A stretch of DNA of 52,133 bases. Source: a bacterium HR17 (GTDB lineage Bacteria; Armatimonadota; Fervidibacteria; Fervidibacterales; Fervidibacteraceae). Below the pieces are notes generated by a model. It did no database searches. It was not told the DNA's origin and saw only the letters and a program-made list of their open reading frames with translations. This document shows positions 10,138-41,710 of this stretch, one piece after another (positions within the stretch are counted from its first letter, which is position 1; the number at the start of each line of letters is the position of its first letter). The translations under genes and the position numbers were made by a program. Location: the NCBI GenBank assembly GCA_002898575.1, contig BEHT01000025.1, positions 1-52,133 on the forward strand, written 5' to 3'.

Positions 10138-12096
10138 ATGGCGCGACCGATGACCGCGGTGCTGCCTCTTACCGACCGCCGTACTGTCGCGTGGCAGCGG
10201 GCAGTGGTCGTCGGTTTAGCGTTAGTGCCGTTGAACGTCTACTGGGTCACGATGATGGAACTGGTGCGCTATGCAGGGCATCCCAGCAATATCGCGCCCT
10301 TTGCCAATGTCGTTTTCATCGTCGTCGTCTTGCTTTGTCTTAATCCGCTGTTGGCGCGGGTCACTCAATGGGTGTCTGTCAGTTGGTTGCGCCCTTTCAC
10401 ATCCACAGAATTGATGCTCATCTACCTCATTCTTTCTATCGCCACCGCGTGGGTGGGGCATGACAGCCTGCAGGTGCTCATGCCGCAGATCGTTTACCCT
10501 TTTCGTTACGCGTCAGCGGAAAACCGATGGGATGAACTTTTCTTGCCTTTGCTACCCCGATGGTTGTATGTGAGTGACCGCACGGCGTTGTTCAACGCTT
10601 ATGCAGGTGGACATCGGTTTTGGACGCCGGAAAATTTTGCGCCGTGGTTAGCACCGCTGTTGGGGTGGGGCAGTTTTTGTGTCGCCCTTTCGGCGTTAAT
10701 GGTGGGATTGTGTCTCCTGTTACGGCACCGTTGGATGGATGAAGAGCGGTTGACTTACCCCGTGCTCTATTTGCCACGCGAAGTCGCTCAGCCGCTTAGC
10801 CGCTTTCGGCGGTCGGGTGCCTTCTGGTTGGGTTTGGGAACCTCTGCCTTTGTGGACATTTTGAACGGCTTTGCCGCTCTCTACCCCTTCGTTCCCTCCA
10901 TCAAGGTGCGTGTCTGGAGTTACGACCAATTGCTGGCGTCGCTGTTTGTCGGTTACCCGTGGCAAGCGTTGCAAGGGACCCGCATGAGTTTTTACCCTTT
11001 CGCCATCGGGTTGGGGCTTTTGCTGCCGCCGGATTTGCTGCTCTCGTGTTGGGTGTTTTACTGGTTTGAACGACTACAGCGGTTGATCGGACTGATGGCG
11101 GGTTGGACCCAATTGCCCGGCTACCCATGGACGAACTTTCAAGCCTTTGGCGGCTACGCCGGCATCGGACTCTTCGCCCTTTGGGTCGCACGCAAATCGT
11201 TGGGACAAACGCTGCGGCGAGCGGTGCGGGGAACGGACACCGAGGAACGGTTGGGATTGGGGTTGCTGCTGGTCGGCTTGCTGTTTGTGGCAGCGTTCGC
11301 CCAAGCGATGGGGATGAGTGGCGCCATAACTTGCCTGTTCTTTGCCATCTACCTGTTGCTGCTGATCGCCATCACCCGCATCCGAGCGGAGTTGGGACCG
11401 CCTGCTCACGACTTGCACAACGCAGGACCCGATGAAGTGCTTATCGCCGTGTTCGGACCGCAAGGCTTGGCGAAGCGCGACCTCGTCGTCGCCAAGTTGT
11501 TTTACTGGTTTAACCGCGCTTATCGGAGTTTGCCTTGCCCCCACTACTTAGAAGGGCTCAAGGTGGCGAAAGACGAGGGATTGGCGTTCGGGCGTATGGC
11601 GGGAGTGATGTTGGTGACGAGCGTCGTCAGTATCGCCGCAGCGATGTTGGTGCACCTTTATTGCTTTTACGCCTACGGCATAACAGCAAAATTTGTCGGT
11701 CCGGCGATTACCGCCTTTGGCGGCGAACCGTTTTGGCGGCTGCAAAACCTATTGGCTGCACCGCCGTCACCGAACCCGTATCCCGCGCGGGCGATCGCAG
11801 CGGGAACGCTTTTCACTTTCGCCTTGATGGCGCTGCGGGCGTCGGTCAGTTGGTTTCCGCTGCACCCGGTCGGCTACGCTATCTCCACCAGTTGGAGCAT
11901 GAATGTGCTTTGGATGCCCCTGTTCATCGCTTACTTGGTGAAAATGGGGCTTTTGCGGCTCGGAGGTTACCGCGCGTTTCGGGAGAGCGGGCTACCTTTC
12001 GGCATCGGGTTGGTGTTGGGCGAATGGATCATCGGCAACGGATGGTTAATCTACGGCATCGTGCGGGGCATCCAAACTTACGCGTTTTGGGTGTGA
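10138..12096 (+). CDS. Large multi-membrane protein, DUF6785/DUF6784-type (copy 1)
   Basis: This 652-residue protein is almost entirely hydrophobic, with at least twelve predicted membrane helices. A cytoplasmic-type loop contains TRIRAELGPPAHDLHN, a motif repeated in diverged form in the copy at 14903-16849 (KIRAQIGPPIHEF). The two proteins also match in length, in the aromatic W/Y-rich N-terminal half and in the C-terminal WFPLHPVGYA / FLPLHPAAYA segment, so they are paralogues. From memory these match the uncharacterised DUF6785 and DUF6784 families; the family name is recognition, not a search result. The size and helix count are like a secondary transporter of oligopeptide-transporter size. 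A transport role for a sugar or oligomer is inferred from the neighbouring AraC regulator and pseudopilins. The ATG at 10138 has only a weak binding site. Confidence 0.7.
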   Translation: MARPMTAVLPLTDRRTVAWQRAVVVGLALVPLNVYWVTMMELVRYAGHPSNIAPFANVVFIVVVLLCLNPLLARVTQWVSVSWLRPFTSTELMLIYLILSIATAWVGHDSLQVLMPQIVYPFRYASAENRWDELFLPLLPRWLYVSDRTALFNAYAGGHRFWTPENFAPWLAPLLGWGSFCVALSALMVGLCLLLRHRWMDEERLTYPVLYLPREVAQPLSRFRRSGAFWLGLGTSAFVDILNGFAALYPFVPSIKVRVWSYDQLLASLFVGYPWQALQGTRMSFYPFAIGLGLLLPPDLLLSCWVFYWFERLQRLIGLMAGWTQLPGYPWTNFQAFGGYAGIGLFALWVARKSLGQTLRRAVRGTDTEERLGLGLLLVGLLFVAAFAQAMGMSGAITCLFFAIYLLLLIAITRIRAELGPPAHDLHNAGPDEVLIAVFGPQGLAKRDLVVAKLFYWFNRAYRSLPCPHYLEGLKVAKDEGLAFGRMAGVMLVTSVVSIAAAMLVHLYCFYAYGITAKFVGPAITAFGGEPFWRLQNLLAAPPSPNPYPARAIAAGTLFTFALMALRASVSWFPLHPVGYAISTSWSMNVLWMPLFIAYLVKMGLLRLGGYRAFRESGLPFGIGLVLGEWIIGNGWLIYGIVRGIQTYAFWV

Positions 12097-14862: not shown

Positions 14863-14902
14863 GCGCCTTGAGTTTGCCCCATAATTGCTACGGTGGCTCA
14901 GG

Positions 14903-16849
14903 ATGACGAGAGCGACGGTCGCCGTCACCCTGTCAGGGGTGGAAGCAGCGCGGGAGCGCCTGTCATGGCGCCCGTTTGTGTTGGCGCTCTTGCTGATCCC
15001 CGTTTCTGCCTACTGGATGGCGCGGCGGGCGCAAGACGGTATCATGTCGCTGAGCGTGCCGCCCGTCTCTTTTGTGTTTTTGCTGGCGGTGCTGAACCTT
15101 CCCCTCCTTCGGCTTAGCAGAGTCTGCGCCTTCCGATGGCTAAAATGTTTTGCCCTCACGCAAGCCGATTTGGCGGCGCTATGGGCGATGTTGGCGGTGG
15201 CGACGGGCATCGCCTGCGAATGGGGCGAGGCGCCGGGTTTAACAGGGTTTCTGGCGTGGTTTGACAACCCGACAAACCGCTACCGCGAACTCATCCTGCC
15301 TTATGTGCCGTCGTGGATGGTGCATGACTACAAGGACGCGTTACAAGCCTTTTTTGGCGGTCATCGCCCTTACGACCTTTATCGTCCCGACCATTTACTT
15401 GCGTGGCTTGTCCCCTTCCTCGGTTGGAGCGGACTCATCATCACCCTCGTGTTCTTGATGCTGTGTTTGCTGCTGTTACTGGCGCCAAGATGGTTGGAGC
15501 AAGAGCGTCTCAGTTACCCCATTGCGACGGTGCCCATCTACCTTTCCCACGACGGTTGGGCATCAAAGTTGCTTGCCGATTGGCGCTTCTGGATAGGTTT
15601 TTTTGTTGCAGCCGTTTACGATGTCGTTTACGGCTTGGTCTTTTGGTGGCGGGGGCAAATATCGCAAGCGTGGAAAGGGTTGGACATTTCGCAACTCATT
15701 GTCAGCCGACCTTGGAATGTTATCGGTTGGACGCCTATCCCCCTGTTGCCCTTCATGATGGCACTCAGTTACTTCATCCCCGCTGACATGGCGTTTTCAG
15801 GCGTGTTCTTTTTTTGGTTCCGCAAACTGCAGCAAATTATCGCGGCAACGCTGGGGCACGATGTCGTGCCGCTGTGGGGCGGTATGGCGGGGGCTGCTAA
15901 AGTGCCTTACTTGACCGAACAATCTGTCGGGGCGTTAGTGGCGCTCTTTTGCGTTTACCTCTGGCACACGAAGGATTACTTGCTACACGGGCTGGGCGCA
16001 AACTTGCAAAACCCGGCGTGGTGCCCGCTGTTGCGGTTTGGGTTATCCGGGTTAGGTGTCGGTTGCCTTGCGCTTGTGGCGTTCGTTTGGGCTATGAAAA
16101 GCAACACAGCCTTTTTGCTGCTTTACCTCGTCATCTTCCTCGCCATCAGCACGGCAGTCGCCAAAATTCGGGCGCAAATCGGACCGCCCATCCACGAGTT
16201 TGCCTTTATGGGTGCTAACCGTTGGTTCATTGATTTGCTCGGTGCCGAGCGGTTAGGTGACCGTGTCATCACCATCATGGGCTACCTTTACTTCACCCAT
16301 CGCATCTGGCGGAGCCATCCGATGCCCCAAATGGCGGACGGTTTTAAAGTCGTGCATACAGCAAAGGCGTTGGACATGCGGTTTGTGGCGGCAACGGTGC
16401 TTGCCATCGTGTCAGGCACGACGGCAATGTATTGGGCGCGCACGCAAGTCGCTTACATTTGGGGCAGTGGGGCACCTTGGGGCTACGCAGGTTGGATTAT
16501 GGAGTGGCGCGGGATGAAAGAACCCAACTACACGGCGGCGGCATTTGGGGTCGGCGGGGCGCTTTTCACGCTGGCGCTCGTTTGGCTGCATAACCGCTTC
16601 CCATTTTTGCCGTTGCATCCTGCCGCTTACGCATTGGCGATGAACTTCGGTATTGATTATTGCTGGTTTCCGATGTTGATTTCAGGCTTGTTCAAAACGG
16701 CGGTCGTCCGCTACGGTGGGCAGCGGGCGTATCATGCCCTCGTCCCGTTTGCCTTGGGCATTATCGTCGGTGAATACCTGACGGGCAGCGTTTGGAGTTG
16801 GATTTGGATTGTCACGGGGCGCCCGACTTACAGTTTCAGCATCAACTGA
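14903..16849 (+). CDS. Large multi-membrane protein, DUF6785/DUF6784-type (copy 2)
   Basis: This ~648-residue, highly hydrophobic protein has at least twelve likely membrane helices and is a paralogue of the protein at 10138-12096. The shared motifs are IRAQIGPPIHEF, the following YFTHRIWRSHPMPQMADGFK block (RAYRSLPCPHYLEGLK in copy 1) and a late PLHPAAYALA segment. I prefer the ATG at 14903; a TTG at 14885 is in frame and possible, and neither has a strong ribosome binding site. It closes the AraC-pseudopilin module and is followed by a Gfo/Idh/MocA oxidoreductase after 73 bases. Transport of a sugar or related compound is inferred from context. Nothing in the sequence identifies a substrate or an energy-coupling residue with certainty. 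Confidence 0.7.
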   Translation: MTRATVAVTLSGVEAARERLSWRPFVLALLLIPVSAYWMARRAQDGIMSLSVPPVSFVFLLAVLNLPLLRLSRVCAFRWLKCFALTQADLAALWAMLAVATGIACEWGEAPGLTGFLAWFDNPTNRYRELILPYVPSWMVHDYKDALQAFFGGHRPYDLYRPDHLLAWLVPFLGWSGLIITLVFLMLCLLLLLAPRWLEQERLSYPIATVPIYLSHDGWASKLLADWRFWIGFFVAAVYDVVYGLVFWWRGQISQAWKGLDISQLIVSRPWNVIGWTPIPLLPFMMALSYFIPADMAFSGVFFFWFRKLQQIIAATLGHDVVPLWGGMAGAAKVPYLTEQSVGALVALFCVYLWHTKDYLLHGLGANLQNPAWCPLLRFGLSGLGVGCLALVAFVWAMKSNTAFLLLYLVIFLAISTAVAKIRAQIGPPIHEFAFMGANRWFIDLLGAERLGDRVITIMGYLYFTHRIWRSHPMPQMADGFKVVHTAKALDMRFVAATVLAIVSGTTAMYWARTQVAYIWGSGAPWGYAGWIMEWRGMKEPNYTAAAFGVGGALFTLALVWLHNRFPFLPLHPAAYALAMNFGIDYCWFPMLISGLFKTAVVRYGGQRAYHALVPFALGIIVGEYLTGSVWSWIWIVTGRPTYSFSIN

Positions 16850-16922: not shown

Positions 16923-17951
16923 ATGGTGAAGGTCGGTGTCGTGGGTTACGGTTACGCAGGGCGGGTGTTCCATTGCCCGCTCATCGCGCAAGTGGACGAG
17001 TTGCAGTTGGTGGCGGTCGCATCGCGAGATGAGGGGCGTCGCCATCAAGCCCAGCAAACTTGGGGCGTGCGGGTTTACGCGACGCCCGACGAGTTGCTTG
17101 CCGACCCGCAGGTGGATGTGGTCGTCATTGCGACACCCCACAACACCCATCACCTCCTTGCTAAAGCCGCGCTGCAAGCAGGCAAGCATGTCGTCGTGGA
17201 CAAACCTTTCACGCTGACGGTCGCTGAAGCCGACGATTTGATCGCCGAAGCGCAAAAGCAGCGCCGCTTGCTCACCGTCTTTCACAACCGTCGCTGGGAT
17301 TGGGACTTCCTGACGGTGCGGCGAGCGATTGAGGCAGGGTTACTGGGCGAAGTGTGGCTGGTGGAGTTGAATGTCGGGCGGTTCGGCCCGCCAGGACGAT
17401 GGCGGGCGGAGCGGGCGACGATGGGGTCGCTGCTGCACGATTGGGGCGTGCACCTGATTGACCAGGCGCTGCTGCTGCTGGGCAAACCGCAAAAAGTGGT
17501 GGCGTGGCGGCACTTCCGCGGCTGGCGACTCAGCGTGGAAAGTTTCTTCCGCGTCGTGCTGGATCACGGCGATGGACGCACCGTCACCTTGGAAGTCAAC
17601 TACCTGCGCAAAGCGGAGCGCCCGCGTTGGTTCGTGCTGGGCGACAAGGGAGGGTTAGTCAAGTTCGGTTTGGACCCGCAGGAAGACGCGCTACGGCAAG
17701 GCGATTTGAGCAAGGCGCGGGAAGCCCCTGAACATCGCGCCAAAGTGTGGACGCACATTGACGGGCACGACGCTGAGTTGACTTTGGAAAGCGTGCGGGG
17801 CGATTGGCGCGCGTTTTACCGCAACTTCGCCGCCGCCTTGCTGCACGGTGCAGAGTTAGCCGTCAAACCCGAAGAAGCCCGTGAAGTCATCCGCATCGTG
17901 GAAGCGGCGCTGCGGTCGACGGAAACAGGGCAGATAGTGACGCTGCTATGA
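16923..17951 (+). CDS. Gfo/Idh/MocA-family NAD(P)-dependent oxidoreductase
   Basis: This 342-residue protein starts at the ATG at 16923; longer in-frame starts would overlap the preceding gene. The N-terminal Rossmann fold has GYGYAG at residues 8-13. The characteristic VDKP motif (D93-K94-P95) provides the catalytic Lys, and LLHDWGVHLIDQ carries the conserved Asp/His pair of the C-terminal domain. These enzymes oxidise or reduce sugars, sugar acids or inositols with NAD(P). The gene ends with ATGA, overlapping the start of the large methylase gene, so translation may be coupled even though the functions look unrelated. It is probably the catabolic enzyme of the preceding AraC-pseudopilin-membrane protein cluster. 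Confidence 0.88.
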   Translation: MVKVGVVGYGYAGRVFHCPLIAQVDELQLVAVASRDEGRRHQAQQTWGVRVYATPDELLADPQVDVVVIATPHNTHHLLAKAALQAGKHVVVDKPFTLTVAEADDLIAEAQKQRRLLTVFHNRRWDWDFLTVRRAIEAGLLGEVWLVELNVGRFGPPGRWRAERATMGSLLHDWGVHLIDQALLLLGKPQKVVAWRHFRGWRLSVESFFRVVLDHGDGRTVTLEVNYLRKAERPRWFVLGDKGGLVKFGLDPQEDALRQGDLSKAREAPEHRAKVWTHIDGHDAELTLESVRGDWRAFYRNFAAALLHGAELAVKPEEAREVIRIVEAALRSTETGQIVTLL

Positions 17952-20884
17952 CTGACACAATGTTAACGGTGAACCGGATGCGGACGGAAGGGTTTCGGCA
18001 AGAAGTGCTCAATGTCAAGTTGGCGGAGTTGTTGGCACAACGGGGCTTAGTCGCTTTGCCCGAACAACGGTTGCCTCAAGCGCTGCCCGATGTCCTCGTC
18101 GTCTTCAGGGGTTTGAGGCTGAACATTGAGGGAGAAATCAGTGACCAAGTCGGAGCAGAACGAAAGGCTTGGGGCAAGGCAAGTCACCGGGTGGAGCGAG
18201 ACATCGCCCACATCGCCGTCGCTTTGCTTTACCCACCCCACTTGCGCCGTGAACCGTTGGAAAATTTGCTCCATGCCCTTGAGCGGACAACTTTGAAATT
18301 TGCCGTTTGCATCCCTCCAATTCCCGAGACGCCCCGATGGCTTGAAGGCGACATAGACACACTTTGTCAAGTCTTGCAAACTGCTTGTGAGCAACTCGCT
18401 TCTGAAGACGCTGTGCAAAAGGCAGCGACTTTCCTCAGGGAAGCAATTCAGTTTCCGTCCCTTGAAATGCTTGCCTCTGGCGTTTCTGTTGACCGTGTGG
18501 CTTACCCGTTAGGCATCCCACCTGAAAGTGTTTCCAAGAAAAAGAGCCGACAAGCGATTGCGGTGGCACAAATTGCGTCCCTCGTGCTCGCTAATGCCAT
18601 GTTGTTTCAGGAAGAGTTAGCACAGGTTGATCATCGGGTTAAGCGGCTGCAGCAATGTCTTGAAGCCAAAAACCTTTACGATGAGTTGTCGGAAGTTTGG
18701 CAGTTCATCTTGCACGAAATCAACTACCACGCTGTCTTTGACATCGCCAGAAAGGTCTTACTTGAGTTGCATAACATCCCGCAAATAAATGCCGCTTTGA
18801 GGCATTGTGCCGAGAAAGTTTTGGAAGTTGTCAAGATGCGGGTGGCGACACGGCACGATGTCGCTGGAAGGTTGTATCACTTGCTTTTAGGCGACATCGC
18901 TAAACCGCTCGGCACTTACTACACTTCCGTCCCCGCAGCCACTTTGCTGCTTCGTTTGGCTGTTGACCCTGACCGATGGCAAATCGCATGGCAAGACATC
19001 AACGCCGTCGGCAAATTGCGCGTTGCCGATTTCGCTTGCGGGACGGGCACTTTGCTGATGGCAGCGTTGCAGGCTGTCCTTGACAACTTTTTACGAGTTG
19101 CTTGGCGCAACGGCGATGATTTGCCATCTCAGCGGCGTCAACTGCTCAAACGGTTGCTGGAGGAAGGGCTTTGGGGCATGGATGTCTTGCAATCGGCAGT
19201 GCACTTGACAGCAACGGCACTGACTTTGCCCGTCCCGGAAGTGACTGTCAAGGGCATGAACCTTTACGCGTTGGATTTGGGGGTTGGCAGCGAAGAAAAA
19301 CGGTTGGGCAGCCTTGACTTGATTCGTGGAACGGCTCAAGTAACCGTTGCCTTGCGCCCGTTTCCCGCAACGCGGGCGAAAGGGAAACGGGTGACTGAGA
19401 CGAGACCTCAACAAGTTCAACTTCCATTGCCTCAAAACGGCTTTGACCTTGTCTGTATGAACCCACCATTTACGCGCAGCACGGGCGGCAATTTGCTTTT
19501 CGGCTCCCTTGCTCCGAAAGAGCGCGAGGCTTTGCAGCGAGAGTTGCAACGGCTCATTCAGAACGAGCGCCTTCTCGCTTCAGCGACGGCAGGTTTAGCG
19601 TCCGTTTTTGTGGTTTTGGCTGACAGATACTTGAAGGAAGGCGGACGGTTGGCGCTCGTTTTACCTAAAGCGCTGCTTTCAGGTGTGGAGTGGGAAAGGA
19701 CTCGCAAGTTGCTGATGCAAAGATATGTCGTGGAGTTCGTTGTCGTCAGCCACGACCCACAGCGATGGAACTTCTCGGAAAACACCGACCTGAGCGAAGT
19801 GCTTTTAGTCGCCCGCAAGGTAGCAGGAAACGAACGACCGAAGAACAACCCCACCCGCAGGCACAACCCTTGCTTGCCCTTGGACGACGAAAGCGAAATG
19901 CTTGACAAGACCCTTTGCGTCAACTTGTGGCGCAATCCCCGCAACTCAATAGAAGCCTTTTTCGTTGCCGAACCGATGCGCCGACACGAAGTCCCACACC
20001 TTGACAAAGGTGTTGCCCACCTTTGGGTTAGTGACGAAAAGTTCGGTGAAGCCTTCGCTTTGGACTGGGATGAATTTTGCCGACTTGACCATTGGCTTTT
20101 GCCCGTCGCTTATGCCCAAAGCGATTTGATACGCCAATTGCTTTCACTGACCTCGCAAGACAAATTGCCTCTTTGCCCGTTACGAGAGTTGGGTGAATTG
20201 GGACCACAGCGCCGTGACATCTGGGACGCTTTTGAGCCTGTAAATGCTCCGCCTGGCTATCCAGCCCTTTGGGGGCATGATGCGACTAAGGTCACAACGA
20301 TGCAGCAGCAACCCAACGCTTACTTGCTTCCCTTAGGCGTGCCGCGCAAAGGGCGTCCCTTGCGAGACGCCAAACTGCTGTGGAGTAGAGCGGGGCGAGT
20401 CCTTATCGCTGAACGAATGTGGTTGAAGACCCAGCGGTTGCCTGCCGTGTTGTTGCCTGAACCTGTGTTGAGCAATGTGTGGTGGCCGTTTCAGTTGCAT
20501 GAAAAATTAGGCGAAGATGCCGCAAAGGCTTTGGTGCTTTGGCTCAACAGCACGATGGGCGTTTTCCTCTTTGTCGCTAACCGAGTGGAAACTCGGGGCG
20601 CATGGGTGACTTTCAAAAAGCCGACTTTGCACGCCATGCCTGTTTTGGATGTTCGCAAGTTGACTCGGCGGCAACGGCAAAGGTTGGCTCAAGCCTTTGA
20701 CCAACTTGCCGATAAACCGTTGCAACCTCTTTCTCAACTTGCAAGTGATTCGGCTCGCAAAGCGATAGACGACGCCGTGTGTGCCGCTTTGGGTTTGCCC
20801 GATATAACGCCGTTGCGGGCGTCCCTTGCGCGCGAACCTATATTCACGCTGCAACCGCTTCAGCAAAAATACATTCGCAAGTAA
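17948..20884 (+). CDS. Large N6-adenine DNA methylase, type IIG restriction-modification-like
   Basis: The 978-residue protein starts in the ATGA overlap at 17948. Residues ~25-100 look like a nuclease-type domain (PDVLVVFRG...NIEGEISD...RVERDIAHIAVALLYPP). Related proteins that I recall have IEGK here, so the Glu at that place may mean a dead PD-(D/E)xK site. A helical region follows, then the methylase domain with the target-end motif GTYYTSVPAATLLL, motif I ADFACGTGTLL (360-370) and catalytic motif IV NPPF (505-508). The ~400 residues after that form a recognition and C-terminal region. There is no separate restriction or specificity gene nearby. The gene looks slightly AT-richer than its neighbours by eye, which suggests transfer. 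It could be a restriction-modification enzyme, an orphan methylase or a defence gene remnant. Confidence 0.8.
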   Translation: MTDTMLTVNRMRTEGFRQEVLNVKLAELLAQRGLVALPEQRLPQALPDVLVVFRGLRLNIEGEISDQVGAERKAWGKASHRVERDIAHIAVALLYPPHLRREPLENLLHALERTTLKFAVCIPPIPETPRWLEGDIDTLCQVLQTACEQLASEDAVQKAATFLREAIQFPSLEMLASGVSVDRVAYPLGIPPESVSKKKSRQAIAVAQIASLVLANAMLFQEELAQVDHRVKRLQQCLEAKNLYDELSEVWQFILHEINYHAVFDIARKVLLELHNIPQINAALRHCAEKVLEVVKMRVATRHDVAGRLYHLLLGDIAKPLGTYYTSVPAATLLLRLAVDPDRWQIAWQDINAVGKLRVADFACGTGTLLMAALQAVLDNFLRVAWRNGDDLPSQRRQLLKRLLEEGLWGMDVLQSAVHLTATALTLPVPEVTVKGMNLYALDLGVGSEEKRLGSLDLIRGTAQVTVALRPFPATRAKGKRVTETRPQQVQLPLPQNGFDLVCMNPPFTRSTGGNLLFGSLAPKEREALQRELQRLIQNERLLASATAGLASVFVVLADRYLKEGGRLALVLPKALLSGVEWERTRKLLMQRYVVEFVVVSHDPQRWNFSENTDLSEVLLVARKVAGNERPKNNPTRRHNPCLPLDDESEMLDKTLCVNLWRNPRNSIEAFFVAEPMRRHEVPHLDKGVAHLWVSDEKFGEAFALDWDEFCRLDHWLLPVAYAQSDLIRQLLSLTSQDKLPLCPLRELGELGPQRRDIWDAFEPVNAPPGYPALWGHDATKVTTMQQQPNAYLLPLGVPRKGRPLRDAKLLWSRAGRVLIAERMWLKTQRLPAVLLPEPVLSNVWWPFQLHEKLGEDAAKALVLWLNSTMGVFLFVANRVETRGAWVTFKKPTLHAMPVLDVRKLTRRQRQRLAQAFDQLADKPLQPLSQLASDSARKAIDDAVCAALGLPDITPLRASLAREPIFTLQPLQQKYIRK

Positions 20885-26180: not shown

Positions 26181-27998
26181 TCATTGCCGCGCCGCTGTTT
26201 TCGTCGCTTCATCGTCGGGGACGAACCACACGAAGGCGATGCACATCTCGTCGGTCGTTTGCTCGCCCCATCGCACCCACTTGGGCGGTTTGTTAGGGTT
26301 GCGCGGGTTTTCCGCCGAATTGTCGTAGTAAGCGACGACCCGCACCTTTGTGCCCGCTGGCAACCGCGCGGGTTGTTTGAAAAAGTAGGTCTCTTGCCAG
26401 TTGAAGTCCCAGTCCTTGACCCACACCAACGGTTTTTCTGCCCCATCAGGCAAAATTGCCGTCACCTTCATCTCGCGCCCGAGCAAGTGCATGTGAGGCA
26501 TGACCGCCAACACTTTGACATCCCGCACGAAGGTGCTCTCCGCCCGCACTTCGTAACGCTTCGCGCCGGGCGGAATGGCGAACAGAAAGTTGACGACGGG
26601 CAGGACGCGCACGATGTGTTTGGGCGGCGTCTTAGCGAAATAGACGCCGACTTTCGTGCGGTCGGTTTCGGGTCGACCCGACTTGTGGTAGTGCACTTGG
26701 ATGACGATCGTGGCACCTTTGGGCAGCAGATAGGCGATACCGTCGGGCAACGGGTGCGGGCTGTTACCTGGCGCCCAACCGCCCAAACCGCCCGCTGGGA
26801 TGAAGCCGGGTCCGCCAAACGCTTCGTAACCTGGTTGCCCATCCCGTCCGTCCAGTTGCTTGGCGCGCCCTGAGGTGTCAATGAAGGCGATGACATGGTG
26901 AACGACGCGCGGGTTGCCCGGCAACACTTCAATGGCTGTCACATATTTGTCCTCGGCGAAGTCGGTCGGGAAGACGAAGTGGCGGTAGACATCGCGCCCT
27001 GTCGCGTCCAACCGAAACTCGCGGTCGGGCTGCAGCACCAAATCGGGTTCGCCCAGCACCCATTTTTCGGGAAACCGCTTGGGCGGCGGGGCGTCTTTGG
27101 GGTCACCTTCGGGGCAACCTTCATCCACCCACCGAACAAGCGTGGCGATTTCCGCCTCTGTCAAGCGCCGCTCATTGTGATACTCGGCGACCGGTTCCGC
27201 TTTCCAAGGCGGCATCCGCCGACTCTGCACAAACGGTTTGATGAGCGGCGCCCATGCCACTGCTTCGTCGTAGGTCATCAACGGAAACGGTGCTGCACCG
27301 TTGGGGCGATGGCACGATTGGCAGCGCTCCTGCAGGATGGACAGCACATCGCGGTAGAAAGTGACCGCACCCGTCTTGGCGCGCGGCTTCGGAAAAGAAA
27401 TGACGCAACCTTGGGCGGTCGTTTCAGGGTTGGGCACGGGTTTGCCCGCTAAAAGGGCTTCTAAAGCGTCGCGCAAATCGTGCCGGGTCACTTGTGTCGC
27501 GTCGGCGTTGTCGTCAATGCGCCCGCGATAGCGCACCACACCGTCGCTGTCCAGCACGACAACTTGCGGCGTGACGGTTGCCCCCAGCGCCTTTGCCAAC
27601 GCCCAATCTTTGACGAGGGGTATTTGCCAACCGACATCGCGGGCATACTGGCGGAGTTCGTCAAGCGGTTCATGGGACATCGGGTTGACGATGAAGAAGG
27701 CGACGCCCTGCTGGCTAAAGGTGGCGTGCAACTGGGCGATGCGCTGCGGATATTTGCGGCACATCGGGCAATACACCGAGAAGAAGACGAACACGGTGGC
27801 GCGATAGGGTTGCAGGTCGGCGAGCGTGTAAGGAACACCGTCAATGTCGCGGAACGACAGCGCTGTAAGGCGCGTGCCGATGGGCACCGACGGCGCTTCA
27901 GCATTTTCCGTCAACGCCATCCCTGCCACCAACGCAGTCACAAGCATCGCCGCAAAAACTTGCGCCCGCCGCTGCACTTTAGACACCTCCGAGGGCAT
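26181..27998 (-). CDS. Fusion of redoxin, c-type cytochrome motif and copper type II monooxygenase domain
   Basis: This 605-residue exported protein has a hydrophobic signal (about residues 12-30). Next comes a thioredoxin-like AhpC/TSA domain with C77-P-M-C80, then a haem c motif C226-Q-S-C-H230, with candidate Met ligands such as RRMPPW. The C-terminal half resembles copper type II ascorbate-dependent monooxygenases: HHV at 367-368, HYH at 436-438 and HMH at 502-504 would be copper ligands. Fusions of this kind occur in Acidobacteria and planctomycetes as I recall. Electrons could pass from a reductant through haem to copper. The start at 27998 has AAGGAG five bases upstream; an in-frame GTG seven codons later is also possible. 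The substrate is unknown. Confidence 0.85.
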   Translation of the reverse strand: MPSEVSKVQRRAQVFAAMLVTALVAGMALTENAEAPSVPIGTRLTALSFRDIDGVPYTLADLQPYRATVFVFFSVYCPMCRKYPQRIAQLHATFSQQGVAFFIVNPMSHEPLDELRQYARDVGWQIPLVKDWALAKALGATVTPQVVVLDSDGVVRYRGRIDDNADATQVTRHDLRDALEALLAGKPVPNPETTAQGCVISFPKPRAKTGAVTFYRDVLSILQERCQSCHRPNGAAPFPLMTYDEAVAWAPLIKPFVQSRRMPPWKAEPVAEYHNERRLTEAEIATLVRWVDEGCPEGDPKDAPPPKRFPEKWVLGEPDLVLQPDREFRLDATGRDVYRHFVFPTDFAEDKYVTAIEVLPGNPRVVHHVIAFIDTSGRAKQLDGRDGQPGYEAFGGPGFIPAGGLGGWAPGNSPHPLPDGIAYLLPKGATIVIQVHYHKSGRPETDRTKVGVYFAKTPPKHIVRVLPVVNFLFAIPPGAKRYEVRAESTFVRDVKVLAVMPHMHLLGREMKVTAILPDGAEKPLVWVKDWDFNWQETYFFKQPARLPAGTKVRVVAYYDNSAENPRNPNKPPKWVRWGEQTTDEMCIAFVWFVPDDEATKTAARQ

Positions 27999-34509: not shown

Positions 34510-35685
34510 GTGGTGAGCCGTGAATCTATCGGCATCGCTTTAATCGGCTGCGGGGGCATGATGGGTGCCCATGTGCGGCACGGGTTCCAAGCGCTGTGGG
34601 AGAAAGGTTTTCGCCCGTTCCGCATCGTCGCCTGCGTGGATGTCAACGAGACGGCGGCGCAAAAACTGGCGGATGACATCGCCGCGTGGCAGGAAAGGCG
34701 CCCGACCGTGTTGCGCGATGTGGGGGCGCTGCTAAGGATGGACAGCGTGGACGCCGTGGACATCGTCGTCCCACATCATGAGCACCACACGGTCGCGAGC
34801 GCCTGCTTGGAAGCGGGCAAACATGTGTTGCTGGAAAAACCGCTGGCGATTACGCTACGGGCAGGGCGCCAAATCATGGAGGCTGCCCATCGCAAAGGGG
34901 TCGTGCTATCCATCGCCGAAAACTATCGGCGTTACCCTGACCAGCGCGCCATCCGCTGGGCAATTCAGCAGGGACGCATCGGGCAACCCCAGCAAGTTTA
35001 CTGGTTAGATGTCACCGAACGGCGTTGGTATTGGGGCTGGCGCGACCATGTGGAGTTGGCAGGGGGCGGATGGACGCTGGATGGCGGCGTCCATTTCGCT
35101 GACTTGATGCGCTACCATGTCGGTGAAGTCGTTGAAGTCGCCGCCCAAATGGCAACCTTCAACCCGACCCGCTTCCGCAAGGTCAACGAGCACGAAGAGC
35201 CTGTCACCGCCACGATTGAAGACACAACGCAAGCGCTGCTGCGGTTCGATAACGGGGCGTTGGGCGTTTGGGTGGAAACGATCGCGGCGCCCGCGCTTAA
35301 AATCGGCAACCGCGTCGTCTACGGCGCAGAGGGCGCATTAGACTTGGAAGCGGGTTTGTTCGTGCGGGGCAAGGACGAACCGATTCCGTTGTCCGCGTTG
35401 CGCGAAGAGTTTTTGGCGGCGCTCTCGGCGGACGAGCGCGAGCGGTTGTTCCCGTTGGGCATCATGGACGGTATTGCACAAGAGGTGCACGAGTTCATCG
35501 TGGCGTGCTTGAGCGGCGACCCGCGAGTGGAGGTGGACGGTGAAGAGGGCTACCGCTCCCAAGCGGTGTGCATCGCTGTTTACGAGTCTGCAACACTGCG
35601 GCAACCTGTAAGCGTCGCTGCCGTCATGGCGTTGGCTGTGGAAACTTATCAGCACCCGCTCAACGAACGGTGGCACATCACCTGA
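34510..35685 (+). CDS. Gfo/Idh/MocA-family oxidoreductase
   Basis: This 391-residue protein begins with GTG at 34510 after AAAGGGGG. The Rossmann motif IALIGCGGMMGAHV, the LLEKP motif (GKHVLLEKPLAIT) with the catalytic Lys, and a later AGGGWTLDGGVHFADLM are diagnostic. It would act on a sugar or cyclitol with NAD(P). The second domain is longer than in the enzyme at 16923-17951. Upstream is a TolB-like gene and downstream, after only 13 bases, the small membrane protein that precedes reverse gyrase. This is one of three members of the family in the window, consistent with a carbohydrate-oriented metabolism. Confidence 0.88.
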   Translation: MVSRESIGIALIGCGGMMGAHVRHGFQALWEKGFRPFRIVACVDVNETAAQKLADDIAAWQERRPTVLRDVGALLRMDSVDAVDIVVPHHEHHTVASACLEAGKHVLLEKPLAITLRAGRQIMEAAHRKGVVLSIAENYRRYPDQRAIRWAIQQGRIGQPQQVYWLDVTERRWYWGWRDHVELAGGGWTLDGGVHFADLMRYHVGEVVEVAAQMATFNPTRFRKVNEHEEPVTATIEDTTQALLRFDNGALGVWVETIAAPALKIGNRVVYGAEGALDLEAGLFVRGKDEPIPLSALREEFLAALSADERERLFPLGIMDGIAQEVHEFIVACLSGDPRVEVDGEEGYRSQAVCIAVYESATLRQPVSVAAVMALAVETYQHPLNERWHIT

Positions 35686-36098: not shown

Positions 36099-39000
36099 AT
36101 GAGTTCCTTTGCGACCTTTCGCCGCCTTTGCCCCAACTGTGGCGGGGACATCAGTGCCGAAAGGTTGGAAGCAGGTTGGGCGTGCGAGAACTGCTTGCCT
36201 GACAGAGCGGTGAGCACCTCGTCGGCGCCGTCGGGACTGTGTGACTTTTTACGGCAGCGGGGCAATTTGCACCATTACCGCTGGGTCTGCTACTTGCAAG
36301 ACACAGAACGCGCCTTCGCCGCCTTTTTTCGCCGCCATCTCGGCGTTGACCTTTGGGCGCTGCAACGGGTTTGGGCGCGGCGGGTGCTGTTAGGCGAGAG
36401 TTTTGCGCTGATTGCCCCGACGGGCGTCGGTAAAACGACCTTTGGCATCGCGATGGCGCACTTTTTGCCCGGCACCGCTTATATCGTCGTCCCGACCCGC
36501 TTGCTGGTGGAGCAAGTCGCCGAACGCTGTCGCGCCTTTGGCACCAAAAAGGTCGTCGCCTACTTGGGACGCACCCGCGAACGCAAGGCAATTGAAACGG
36601 GCGACTACGAAGTGCTCATTACGACCAGCATGTTTTTGGCGACAAGTTTTGACCTGCTCAACGGGCGCACCTTTGACTTCGTGTTTGTGGACGATGTGGA
36701 CGCCTTGCTCAAGTCAGGGCGCAATGTAGACAAGGTGCTGAAACTGCTCGGTTTCACCGATGCCGACATTGACGCCGCATGGAAGGAGAGGCGTGGCGCT
36801 CAAACCGCACCGCTTGTCCCCGACGAGGGTGAAGAAGAAGCCGAAGAAGCCGAGATGGACGAGGTGTTTGGTGAGGCGGGTGAAGACGAGGGCTCTGAAG
36901 AGACGCCCTCTGTCTTGCGTCCTGCGTCCCGCCCCAAGGGTGTTCTCGTCGTTTCGTCAGCGACTTTGCGCCCCCGCACAAAGCGCGTGCTGTTGTTTCG
37001 CGCCCTCTTGGGCTTTGAAGTTGTTCCCGTGCGGGTGACGGTGCGCAATGTGTGTGACGCCGTCCAATGGGTGCGCGATGTGAACGACGCCAAGCGCCAA
37101 CTCGTCCGTTGGGTCGAGCGATTTGGCAAGGGGGGCATCGTGTTCGTCTCAGGCGAACTGGGGCGCGACGGCGTCGCAGACATCGTGGCGTGGCTGCAGC
37201 GTCATAAGATCAGTGCCGTCGCTTACGACGAACTCGTCGCAAACAGCGACCAATTGCAGGCGTTTCAACGCGGCGACATCGCCGTCGCCGTCGGCATCGC
37301 TATTCCGACCAACGCGCTGGTGCGGGGGATTGATTTGCCCGAAACCGTCCGCTACGCCATCTTCATGGATGTGCCCAAGATGACTTTTCCGCTGACGGCG
37401 ACCGACGACCCCCGCAGTTTCGTCCCGTTGCTGTTGGCGCTGCGGGAAGTCAGCGACGACAAAGCCCGCATTGACGCCTACCTGTCCACGATGCGTCGCT
37501 ACCGCTTTTGGCGCTCCGACCAACCCCGACCCAAACGGGTTCAGGAAATCGCCGACTACTTGCGCCAACAATTCGCCGATGAAGGCGTGCTGGCGAAGTT
37601 GGAGATAGCGGAAACAGTGGCGCTGCACCGTCAGGATGGGCAACTGTTCATCACCCTCGGCGACGCCGCCAGTTACCTGCAAGCGTCGGGGCGCACCTCG
37701 CGGTTGTTCGCGGGGGGGATCAGCCGAGGCATCAGCCTTATTTTGGCGTGGGATAAAAAAGCCTTCCACAGTTTACAGCGCCGCTTGCGGCTCTTTTACG
37801 ACGAGGTGGAGTTCGCCGACGCCGAGCAGGTGGATTGGGACGCAGAGTTGCACAAGGTAGACGACGACCGCCGACGCATCCGCCAGTTGCAAGCGGGTGA
37901 GGTCGTGGACAGGGTGCACCCCGAAATGCGCACGACTTTGGTCATCGTGGAGTCGCCCAACAAAGCCCGCACTATCGCCCACTTTTTCGGGACGCCTCAG
38001 CGGCGCGTCCTGAACGGGTTGTCGGTGTGGGAAGTGACGACGGGCGATAGGTTGCTCGCTGTCACGGCATCGCTGGGGCACATCTTTGACCTCGTGGAAC
38101 GCGAAGGGCTCCACGGCGTCTTGCAACGGGACGGTTTTTTTGTCCCCGTTTACAGCACCATCAAATCGTGCCCGCAGTGCGGGGAGCAAACGACCGAAGA
38201 CGCTTGCGCCTGCGGCAAACCGCCTGAACGGGACAAGATGACGCTCATCCATGCCTTACAGCGCGTTGCCGTGCAGTTTGACGAAATTGTCATCGCTACC
38301 GACCCCGATGCGGAAGGCGAAAAAATTGGCTACGACCTGATGGCAGCGCTCAAGCCGTTTAACCCCAACATCGTGCGGGCTGAATTTCACGAGGTCACGC
38401 GCCGCGCCTTTTTGCAGGCGCTGCGTTCGCCGCGGCAGATGGAACGCAATCTCGTCAAAGCCCAGATGACGCGCCGCATCCTTGACCGCTGGGTCGGTTT
38501 TGAGTTGTCGCGCCGCTTGTGGCAAGTCTTCCACCGCCACGATCTGTCGGCGGGGCGCGTCCAAACGCCCGTGCTCGGTTGGGTCATTGAGCGCACCGAT
38601 TTGGCACGGCAAAAGAAAGCCCGAATCACCGTCCAATGCGCCAGCGCGTCCCGCAACGAGATCACCGTGCAACTTTCCTTTGAGCACGACGACCTGCACT
38701 TTGCTCGCCAGTTATTTGAGCGATTGGAGCAAGCCCGCATCACCGTCACCGATGCGGGCGAAGAGACGGTCAATCCGCCGCCCCCTTACAACACCGGGAC
38801 GCTCCTTGCAGAGGCGGGCAGTTTCGCCTCTGCGACGAGTGTCATGGATGCGTTGCAAGACCTGTTTGAACGGGGCGTCATCACCTATCATCGCACCGAC
38901 AGCGTGCGGGTGTCCGATGCAGGCATACGGGTCGCGCAGGAGTTGCTGGAACGCTTGCAGGCTGCCGGCGATTTTCAGCCCCGCTCTTACGGGGCGGAAG

Positions 39001-39638
39001 GGGCGCACGAGTGCATTCGCCCGACCCGCCCGTTGACCGACGACGATTTGCGGTTGTGGCTGTCGGCGGGGCGCATCGCGCTGGACAACCCCAAGTTGGC
39101 GTTGCGCCTTTACGGCTTGATTGTCCGCAGATTTTTGGCGTCGCAGATGAAACCCGCCAGCGTGCGCAAGGCGAAGGTCACCTTGCAGTTGGGCGATTGG
39201 CAGCACGAATGGGAAGTGATTGCGGAAGTGTTGGACGACGGTTTTCATCGCATCGCGCCGCTGCGGGTGCAACCTGTCGCAGCGGACATGCGCGTCGTCG
39301 GCAAACAGATGCGGACGGTCAGTAAAGTGCTGCCCTTCACGCAAGGCAGCCTGATTGAAGAGATGCGCCGACGGGGTTTGGGGCGTCCGTCCACTTACGC
39401 CAAAATCGTCCAGACACTGCTGGAGCGCGGCTATGTCGTGGAGCGCAACGGGTTTCTGTTCGTGACGGAGTTGGGGCGACAGGTTTACCGCTGGCTGCGG
39501 TCGCGTTATCCCGAATTCGCCGACGAAGCGCTGACCCGTGAGTTGGAAGAGCAAAGCGACCGCATTGAAGCCGGCGAACTGGACTACCAAGCCGTCTTGC
39601 GCCAATTGCGCCACAGCCGTTTGTTCGCCGATTCGTAA
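36099..39638 (+). CDS. rgy: Reverse gyrase
   Basis: This 1,179-residue protein has the complete architecture. An N-terminal zinc finger (C11/C14/C29/C32) precedes a helicase-like domain with Walker A APTGVGKT (106-113), FVFVDDVD (Walker B, about 195-201), SSAT (286-289) and motif VI QASGRTSR. A type IA topoisomerase follows: Toprim VIVESPNKA (about 615-623), TDPDAEGE (about 734-741) and catalytic Y930 in ITYHRTDS. A second zinc site reads CPQC ... CACG. The length matches known reverse gyrases. A highly acidic insert (about 242-268) interrupts the helicase region after Walker B. The enzyme positively supercoils DNA and is the best marker of thermophiles. The ATG at 36099 has GGCGGAG five bases upstream; a longer frame exists but would overlap the preceding gene. 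Confidence 0.97.
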   Translation: MSSFATFRRLCPNCGGDISAERLEAGWACENCLPDRAVSTSSAPSGLCDFLRQRGNLHHYRWVCYLQDTERAFAAFFRRHLGVDLWALQRVWARRVLLGESFALIAPTGVGKTTFGIAMAHFLPGTAYIVVPTRLLVEQVAERCRAFGTKKVVAYLGRTRERKAIETGDYEVLITTSMFLATSFDLLNGRTFDFVFVDDVDALLKSGRNVDKVLKLLGFTDADIDAAWKERRGAQTAPLVPDEGEEEAEEAEMDEVFGEAGEDEGSEETPSVLRPASRPKGVLVVSSATLRPRTKRVLLFRALLGFEVVPVRVTVRNVCDAVQWVRDVNDAKRQLVRWVERFGKGGIVFVSGELGRDGVADIVAWLQRHKISAVAYDELVANSDQLQAFQRGDIAVAVGIAIPTNALVRGIDLPETVRYAIFMDVPKMTFPLTATDDPRSFVPLLLALREVSDDKARIDAYLSTMRRYRFWRSDQPRPKRVQEIADYLRQQFADEGVLAKLEIAETVALHRQDGQLFITLGDAASYLQASGRTSRLFAGGISRGISLILAWDKKAFHSLQRRLRLFYDEVEFADAEQVDWDAELHKVDDDRRRIRQLQAGEVVDRVHPEMRTTLVIVESPNKARTIAHFFGTPQRRVLNGLSVWEVTTGDRLLAVTASLGHIFDLVEREGLHGVLQRDGFFVPVYSTIKSCPQCGEQTTEDACACGKPPERDKMTLIHALQRVAVQFDEIVIATDPDAEGEKIGYDLMAALKPFNPNIVRAEFHEVTRRAFLQALRSPRQMERNLVKAQMTRRILDRWVGFELSRRLWQVFHRHDLSAGRVQTPVLGWVIERTDLARQKKARITVQCASASRNEITVQLSFEHDDLHFARQLFERLEQARITVTDAGEETVNPPPPYNTGTLLAEAGSFASATSVMDALQDLFERGVITYHRTDSVRVSDAGIRVAQELLERLQAAGDFQPRSYGAEGAHECIRPTRPLTDDDLRLWLSAGRIALDNPKLALRLYGLIVRRFLASQMKPASVRKAKVTLQLGDWQHEWEVIAEVLDDGFHRIAPLRVQPVAADMRVVGKQMRTVSKVLPFTQGSLIEEMRRRGLGRPSTYAKIVQTLLERGYVVERNGFLFVTELGRQVYRWLRSRYPEFADEALTRELEEQSDRIEAGELDYQAVLRQLRHSRLFADS

Positions 39639-39707: not shown

Positions 39708-40403
39708 ATGGCGCGCCACAACGACCATGCCGACGCCGCATGGCAACACTACTTTACGGAGCGCCCGACGACGCCCAGCAAACCCAAGCACATCCGTGCC
39801 CGCTTGCGAGGGCGCGAGTTCGTCTTTGAGACGGACAAAAGCGTGTTCGCCAAAGACTATGTGGACTTGGGCACGAAGCGCTTGGTGGAAGTCGCTCACC
39901 TCCCCGATGAAGGCGAGGTGCTGGATTTAGGGTGCGGTTACGGCGCCATCGGTATCGCCATCGCGGCGACGCACCCGCGCTTGCGGGTGTGGATGGTGGA
40001 CATCAACGAACGCGCCGTCGCCTTGGCGCGGCGTAACTTGAAACGCAACCGCATCAAAAACGCCATCGCGCTCAAAAGTGACGGGACGGCGGCGTTGCCG
40101 CCCGACTTGCAATTTGACGCCATCCTGACCAACCCGCCCATCCACGCGGGCAAAAAAGTGCTGGTGCGGCTCATCTGCGAAGCCTTTGAGCGGCTGAAAG
40201 TCGGCGGCACTTTTTGGTTTGTCGCCCGCACGCAACACGGCGCGAAAACGCTGCAGCGCCTCACCGCTGAAATTTTTGGTGACGCCGAGTGCGTGGACAT
40301 CCACGGCGGCTATCGGGTCATCGTTGCCGTCAAAGAACGACCGGCGCCCGCTCCCGACGCAGCGCAAACGGACGACGAAACAATGCAGCGAGGTGAGCGA
40401 TGA
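39708..40403 (+). CDS. RsmC-like SAM-dependent rRNA guanine methyltransferase
   Basis: This 231-residue protein starts at the ATG at 39708, after GGTGAGG. Motif I VLDLGCGYGAIGIAIA, an acidic loop MVDINERAV and the catalytic NPPIHAGKK motif place it with the RsmC/RlmG N2-guanine methyltransferases of rRNA. It has only the catalytic domain (RsmC has an extra inactive domain), as is common in non-enterics. It ends in ATGA, overlapping the purB start at 40400, so translation is probably coupled. Its location beside reverse gyrase and purB suggests a housekeeping operon. Confidence 0.85.
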   Translation: MARHNDHADAAWQHYFTERPTTPSKPKHIRARLRGREFVFETDKSVFAKDYVDLGTKRLVEVAHLPDEGEVLDLGCGYGAIGIAIAATHPRLRVWMVDINERAVALARRNLKRNRIKNAIALKSDGTAALPPDLQFDAILTNPPIHAGKKVLVRLICEAFERLKVGGTFWFVARTQHGAKTLQRLTAEIFGDAECVDIHGGYRVIVAVKERPAPAPDAAQTDDETMQRGER

Positions 40404-41710
40404 GGATGGGCAGCGCCGTTTGGGAACGCTACAGTTACCCCGAAATGCGTCAATTGTGGAGTTTGGAGAGCAAGTTCCAAGCGTGGATGGAAGTGGAGTT
40501 GGCGATTTGCGATGCCTGGGCGGAGTTGGGGGTCATCCCGAAAGACGCCGCACAAAAAATTCGCGAACGGGCATCGTTCACCGTTGAGCGCGTTTTGGAA
40601 CTGGAGCGTGAATATGAGCACGACCTGATCGCCTTCGTGCGGGCGATGACAGAGCACATGGGCGATGAAGCCCGCTATGTGCACATGGGTGTCACGAGTT
40701 ACGATGTAGAAGACACGGCGTTGGGGCTACTGCTCAAACGGGCGTGCGAGATGTTGGAGCGGGATTTGGACGACGCAATGGATGCGGTGCGCAACCGCGC
40801 CGTCGAGCACAAGCACACGCTCATGATGGGACGGACGCACGGCGTTCACGCCGAACCCATCACTTTCGGGTTGAAGTTGCTGGTGTGGCTGTCGGAGTTG
40901 GAGCGACACAGGGAGCGGTTGCGGGCGGTGAAAGAGCGCGTGGCGGCGGGCAAAATTTCGGGCGCAGTCGGCACTTACGCGACCGTTGACCCGCTCGTGG
41001 AGGAGATCGTTTTACGCCGCTTAGGGTTGAACCGACCGCAAGTCAGCACGCAAATTTTGCAGCGCGACCGTCACGCCGAGTATCTGTGCGTGCTGGCGCT
41101 GATAGCGGCATCCATTGAGCAATTCGCCACCGAAATCCGCAACTTGCAGCGGACGGAGATCGCCGAGGTGGAAGAGCCGTTTCGGACGGGGCAGCGGGGC
41201 TCATCGGCGATGCCCCACAAACGCAACCCCATCCGCAGCGAACGGTTGTGCGGATTGGCGCGCTTGGTGCGCGGCATGGTCATCCCCGCATTGGAAAACA
41301 TCGCCACCTGGCACGAACGGGATTTGACCAACTCGTCGGTGGAGCGGGTGATTTTGCCCGAAGCGTCCATCCTGACCGACTACATGCTGCGACAATTTGC
41401 CGCTATCGTGCGGGGTTTGGTCGTCAAGCCCGAGAATATGCGGCGCAACTTGGAGGAGACGCAGGGTGTCGTCTTTTCGCAACGGGTGCAACTGGCACTG
41501 CGGGAAAAGGGATGGTCGGCGGATGAGGCTTACAAGGTCGTGCAGCAATGCGCTTTTGAAGCCCTCCAACAACGGCGTCCGCTGCAGCAGGTGTTGCGGG
41601 AGCGTCCAGAAATTCGGCGCACGCTGAGCGATGCGGAGTTGGATGCGCTGTTTGACTACAGTTACTTTGTGCGCCATGTGGACACCATTTTTCAGCGGTT
41701 CGGGTTGTGA
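40400..41710 (+). CDS. purB: Adenylosuccinate lyase
   Basis: This 436-residue protein is of typical length for the short bacterial form. It shows the three conserved regions of the fumarase/aspartase superfamily: the first around TSYDVEDTALG, the second around MMGRTHGVHAEP, and the SSAMPHKRNPIRSE signature. The last carries the flexible loop Ser that acts as the catalytic base. It catalyses two steps of purine synthesis, forming AICAR and AMP with release of fumarate. The start at 40400 overlaps the end of the RsmC-like gene and follows AGGTGAGCG; an ATG two codons later is possible. The neighbouring purine genes are not in the window. Confidence 0.95.
   Translation: MRMGSAVWERYSYPEMRQLWSLESKFQAWMEVELAICDAWAELGVIPKDAAQKIRERASFTVERVLELEREYEHDLIAFVRAMTEHMGDEARYVHMGVTSYDVEDTALGLLLKRACEMLERDLDDAMDAVRNRAVEHKHTLMMGRTHGVHAEPITFGLKLLVWLSELERHRERLRAVKERVAAGKISGAVGTYATVDPLVEEIVLRRLGLNRPQVSTQILQRDRHAEYLCVLALIAASIEQFATEIRNLQRTEIAEVEEPFRTGQRGSSAMPHKRNPIRSERLCGLARLVRGMVIPALENIATWHERDLTNSSVERVILPEASILTDYMLRQFAAIVRGLVVKPENMRRNLEETQGVVFSQRVQLALREKGWSADEAYKVVQQCAFEALQQRRPLQQVLRERPEIRRTLSDAELDALFDYSYFVRHVDTIFQRFGL

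Follow-up and report, generated by a model that had tools for sequence, protein, structure and literature searches.

A complete reverse gyrase gene of bacterium HR17, probably acquired by an old transfer and carrying a lineage-specific acidic loop

Reverse gyrase overwinds DNA and occurs almost only in heat-loving microbes. A gene for it (rgy) was located in the window, the whole 52,133-nt stretch of DNA analysed here, which is the entire contig C25 of a 3.15-Mb assembly (75 contigs, estimated contamination of 2.6%) from a phylum that we take to be Armatimonadota. The locus raises the questions of whether the enzyme is complete, how it reached this lineage and what an acidic insert within it may do. 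The preferred reading, to which a probability of roughly 0.88 was assigned, is a functional reverse gyrase of ordinary mechanism, acquired by old transfer from a pool common with a WOR-3 bacterium, with a lineage-specific loop that probably tunes the enzyme if it has any effect.

The reading frame starts with ATG, is uninterrupted and encodes a product of 1179 aa. The product matched TIGR01054 with 1232 bits (cut-off of 472) over profile positions 5-1165 of 1172. Pfam domains were found in the expected order of zf_Rg (49.7 bits), DEAD, Toprim and Topoisom_bac, so that one polypeptide holds both the N-terminal helicase-like module and the C-terminal type IA topoisomerase of a reverse gyrase. 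A phmmer search against the PDB matched the product to the Thermotoga maritima reverse gyrase 4DDT with an E-value of 5e-203. The AlphaFold2 model was confident (mean pLDDT of 87, pTM of 0.87) and was searched with Foldseek, giving 7FSF and 4DDT as the top matches (E-value of 3e-96). The model aligns with the enzymes of T. maritima and A. fulgidus along their whole length, and shares domain order, motifs and fold with the T. maritima enzyme (4DDT, 7FSF) at TM-scores of 0.83/0.89 and 35% identity. The sequence-only reading had called the gene a complete reverse gyrase, and the frame, profile score and fold match bear this out.

Helicase, Toprim, tyrosine and zinc motifs had likewise been claimed, and each was located (Table 1). 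Helicase motifs I, II, III and VI start at aa 109 (GVGKT), aa 198 (DDVD), aa 286 (SSAT) and aa 528 (QASGRTSR), respectively. The topoisomerase motifs are VESPNKART at aa 617, DPDAEGEK at aa 735 and TYHRTDS, which contains Tyr930. Residues E618, D735, D737, E739 and Y930 are invariant in the 39 aligned sequences. In the alignment with 38 relatives no catalytic residue was absent, nor any conserved residue of the N-terminal zinc finger (zinc 1); the product departs at three columns conserved at ≥92% (A406, S1075, S1153), none of them catalytic. A second zinc finger is also present. Zinc 2 is optional in reverse gyrase, and only 62% of family members conserve it (PMC6878951).

Table 1. Coordinates in the window of rgy, its motifs and its flanking genes.
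Feature	Position	Strand	Basis
rgy, reverse gyrase gene	36099..39638	+	ORF, profile, domain, PDB and Foldseek searches
N-terminal zinc finger zf_Rg (C11, C14, C29, C32)	36129..36194	+	Pfam, motif reading
Walker A GVGKT, helicase-like domain	36423..36437	+	Motif reading
Motif II (Walker B) DDVD	36690..36701	+	D198, D199, D201 invariant in 39 sequences
Acidic insert core, aa 243-270	36825..36908	+	Composition; inside predicted disordered aa 235-275 (36801-36923)
Motif III SSATL	36954..36968	+	Motif reading
Motif VI QASGRTSR	37680..37703	+	Motif reading
Toprim start VESPNKART, catalytic E618	37947..37973	+	Pfam, alignment
Second zinc finger (C691, C694, C703, C705)	38169..38213	+	Motif reading
Toprim DPDAEGEK motif (D735, D737, E739)	38301..38324	+	Alignment
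Active-site motif TYHRTDS, Tyr930	38883..38903	+	Alignment
Upstream flank, Gfo/Idh/MocA oxidoreductase (longest frame from 34393)	34516..35685	+	Orthologue beside empty site in G003
Upstream flank, small protein with hydrophobic segment	35690..36070	+	G003 orthologue directly abuts methyltransferase
Downstream flank, methyltransferase (MTS, RsmC-like)	39708..40403	+	Orthology
Adenylosuccinate lyase purB	40400..41710	+	Orthologues 72-85% identical in G002, G003, G004

Assignment of the product to DNA topoisomerase I (TopA), a type IA enzyme without a helicase-like module, was rejected on the presence of that module. The genome carries topA and gyrA besides rgy, which is its sole full-length reverse gyrase; its second type IA enzyme, of 834 aa, is the product of an ordinary topA on contig C5. 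The gyrA product (1269 aa; L244:222-4028, minus strand, contig C2) is interrupted at about residues 149-578 by an intein that includes a LAGLIDADG homing-endonuclease domain. Judging from family knowledge and the complete residue set, the rgy product would couple ATP hydrolysis in its helicase-like module to strand passage, which Tyr930 and the Toprim acids would perform. The SF2-type helicase-like module (zinc finger, H1/H2 and latch region) would use ATP to drive the topoisomerase module, and the type IA module (Toprim and Tyr930) would, at high temperature, introduce positive supercoils or re-anneal DNA that has come unwound.

An acidic insert of about 27 residues after Walker B had been reported from the sequence alone and is real. 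Its core comprises 28 residues, 15 of them D or E and none K or R, and lies about 45 residues past DDVD. The span between motifs II and III is 88 residues, more than in any other of the 71 reverse gyrases scored by motif spacing (median of 62, range of 46-88), a pattern that missed 12 sequences, mostly archaeal or truncated. The loop is also the most acidic of the 71 (16/27 against at most 11). Residues 228-273 lie opposite only about 11 residues in the T. maritima enzyme, and in the alignment of 39 sequences most of the insert occupies columns filled by few or no others. Archaeal reverse gyrases have longer stretches of mixed charge at this position, so the spot tolerates insertions and the unusual aspect of the window protein is the composition of its insert. 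The sequence-only reading had proposed a check of whether the insert is conserved in the nearest relatives. It is not: none was found in the other sequences scored, including the nearest relative (L034, with a span of 50, 38 residues shorter), nor in L033, one of the 12 missed sequences, which was read by eye.

The loop is a feature of this lineage and not of the family. It would be an insertion, probably disordered, in a part of the H1 domain where length varies; its role may be none, and its effect, if any, is probably on tuning rather than on catalysis. A stronger proposal gives the loop a regulatory function: it could, for instance, mimic nucleic acid and so tune how H1 binds DNA, or recruit a basic partner. 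Its extreme acidity, the lack of any basic residue in the core and its position between motifs II and III are in favour of this. Against it stand its absence from the relatives and its predicted disorder (aa 235-275 unstructured in the AlphaFold2 model with pLDDT below 50, block values of 28-46). The site is moreover variable in length, so neutral expansion fits equally, and a weak internal repeat in the coding DNA (36822-36849 against 36873-36900, 71%) is consistent with such expansion. A regulatory role was therefore judged unlikely, although it keeps some weight. A more specific version is decidedly speculative: that the disordered loop gates the helicase-like domain of a transferred enzyme, either by mimicking DNA or as a tail that binds a partner, perhaps in adaptation to a host that retains gyrase and topoisomerase I. 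If true, the window protein would represent a regulatory variant new to reverse gyrases.

The origin of the gene was approached through its distribution. Reverse gyrase scored above cut-off in 3/291 genomes of the phylum, namely the window's genome, G219 and G030. None was found in a same-family (90% complete) or a same-order (96%) genome, or in the two same-genus genomes G001 and G002, which are only 61 and 63% complete and may hold a copy elsewhere. In three trees the window copy was sister to L034, from the uncultured bacterium S1_Bin_METABAT__176_1 of the WOR-3 phylum, with support of 100/100 and 60-63% identity over the full length. The L034 gene differs in lying on a contig of 32% GC, in a genome of another phylum and among other gene neighbours. 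Its genome, G291, shares a phylum set with the WOR-3 genomes G292 and G293, and 28/147 genomes of that set have the gene. Beyond L034 the window branch joins an unresolved fork among bacterial reverse gyrases.

The gene tree was compared with a species tree built from rpoB, in place of the ribosomal proteins suggested by the sequence-only reading, and the two are incongruent: in the rpoB tree G291 groups with WOR-3, far from the window's genome, which groups with its own phylum. This conflict, together with the tests and the empty site described below, supports the earlier proposal of transfer from another thermophilic lineage.

The two other copies belong to the same family and the same host phylum as the window's but differ in placement. 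The G219 copy (L033) lies inside an Aquificaceae clade and is 44% identical to the window protein; the G030 copy (L004) lies beside an Aenigmatarchaeota sequence in the archaeal part of the tree and is 35% identical. A single clade for the three copies was rejected by the AU test (p of 2e-34, at a cost of 739 log-likelihood units), and so was a group of the window and G219 copies (p of 7e-67). As read from these trees, the three genes are separate acquisitions. The G030 contig is native, the gene adjoining its reverse gyrase having orthologues 84-87% identical in its genus; the check by neighbour orthologues covered this contig. The G219 reverse gyrase is the end gene of a 13-kb contig; downstream of it, at L161:7832-12965, lie genes of restriction-modification-like type that were read as res and mod. 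One genus-level group contains G219 (L033/L161) with an Aquificaceae-like copy, G030 (L004/L162) with an archaeal-like copy and G017 with none.

The acquisition site is unusually clear. In G003, of the same family, the three flanking genes have orthologues that lie side by side in the order seen in the window: oxidoreductase, small protein, methyltransferase. About 18 bp separate the end of the small gene there from the start of the methyltransferase gene, and no reverse gyrase is present. In G002 a GH1-like beta-glucosidase gene comes after the oxidoreductase and small gene, and the methyltransferase of G001 is located elsewhere. A mobile element was sought at the rgy site and none was seen; the repeats there were short and chance-like, and RNA genes were absent. 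The gene would have entered the lineage horizontally, from a reverse gyrase pool on which a WOR-3-phylum bacterium also drew, and would have inserted between the small membrane-protein gene and the RsmC-like methyltransferase gene. Clean loss in G003 and others, instead of gain in the window's lineage, also fits the site, but the tree favours gain.

Vertical inheritance from a thermophilic ancestor of the phylum, followed by many losses, would explain why three members still have the gene and why its codon usage is host-like. A single origin within the phylum is rejected by the AU test, however, with the copies in three clades, and so few carriers and a clean site in a same-family genome also stand against it; this history was considered very improbable.

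The GC content and codon usage of rgy match those of its neighbours (GC3 of 0.742, codon score within the neighbours' range). Since the codon usage is host-like, a transfer would not be recent but old enough for amelioration. The purB orthologues within the taxonomic order (72-85% identical) mark the contig as native, and the nearest kin of the neighbours are close (purB 85% in G002, methyltransferase 78% in G001, oxidoreductase 69% in G002). Misbinning of a contig from another community organism, for which the 75 contigs and 2.6% estimated contamination leave room, is barely credible and was rejected, given same-genus and same-family kin for neighbours on the same 52-kb contig, gene order kept in G003 and a composition matching the neighbours rather than the 32% GC of the L034 contig.

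Other loci in the window were noted. The gene at 17948-20884 (plus strand) encodes a 978-aa protein with weak similarity to N6-adenine methylases (Eco57I, type I and PglX-like). Its GC content of 0.536 is low and its codon fit is the poorest of the genes scored, so it is possibly a recent acquisition. Two copies of the DUF6785/DUF6784 family lie in one neighbourhood at 10138-12096 and 14885-16849 (plus strand). The gene at 26181-27998 (minus strand) combines a redoxin domain and a copper type II monooxygenase C-terminal domain with a weak haem-binding match.

Growth at high temperature, as proposed from the sequence alone, is likely for the host. The 16S G+C content is 64.6%, the highest of 15 genomes compared (63% in G003, about 60% in Thermodesulfobacterium, 57.1% in G291 and down to 54% in other phylum members). 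The 16S gene (L156, contig C9) is about 1625 bases, longer than usual. The IVYWREL rule, which was designed for whole proteomes, gave about 61°C for 28 window proteins, lower than the 16S signal suggests. Among species with reverse gyrase and known optima, 89% grow above 65°C, with exceptions in a few moderate thermophiles and in one species at 40°C (PMC6878951). The 16S value and this association support thermophily indirectly; given the exceptions, the gene by itself is no proof of it.

Armatimonadetes are not mentioned in the main text of a 2019 reverse gyrase survey (PMC6878951). In a 2022 metagenome study, three Armatimonadota bins (genus HRBIN17) are not listed among the bins without the gene and are thereby implied to carry it (PMC9789041), so that reverse gyrase in bins of this phylum was already implied by a published hot-spring survey. 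Our literature search did not find it named in Fervidibacter itself. 'Candidatus Kryptonia' is likewise a hot-spring bacterium with a transferred reverse gyrase; its inferred donor was a Thermoproteales archaeon, whereas the window gene is of bacterial type (PMC4737851).

Acquisition by transfer is a common history for reverse gyrase, and the window is a further example, not one new in kind. What it adds is an acquisition by a bacterial lineage that is documented by an empty site in a sister genome, beyond the tree alone, and a phylum whose three reverse gyrases each have a separate source, with two of the three in a single genus-level group. The empty site and the separate sources fit the view that transfer is the main route by which bacterial reverse gyrase spreads (PMC6878951). 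Close relatives with and without the gene offer a system for asking whether its gain raises growth temperature.
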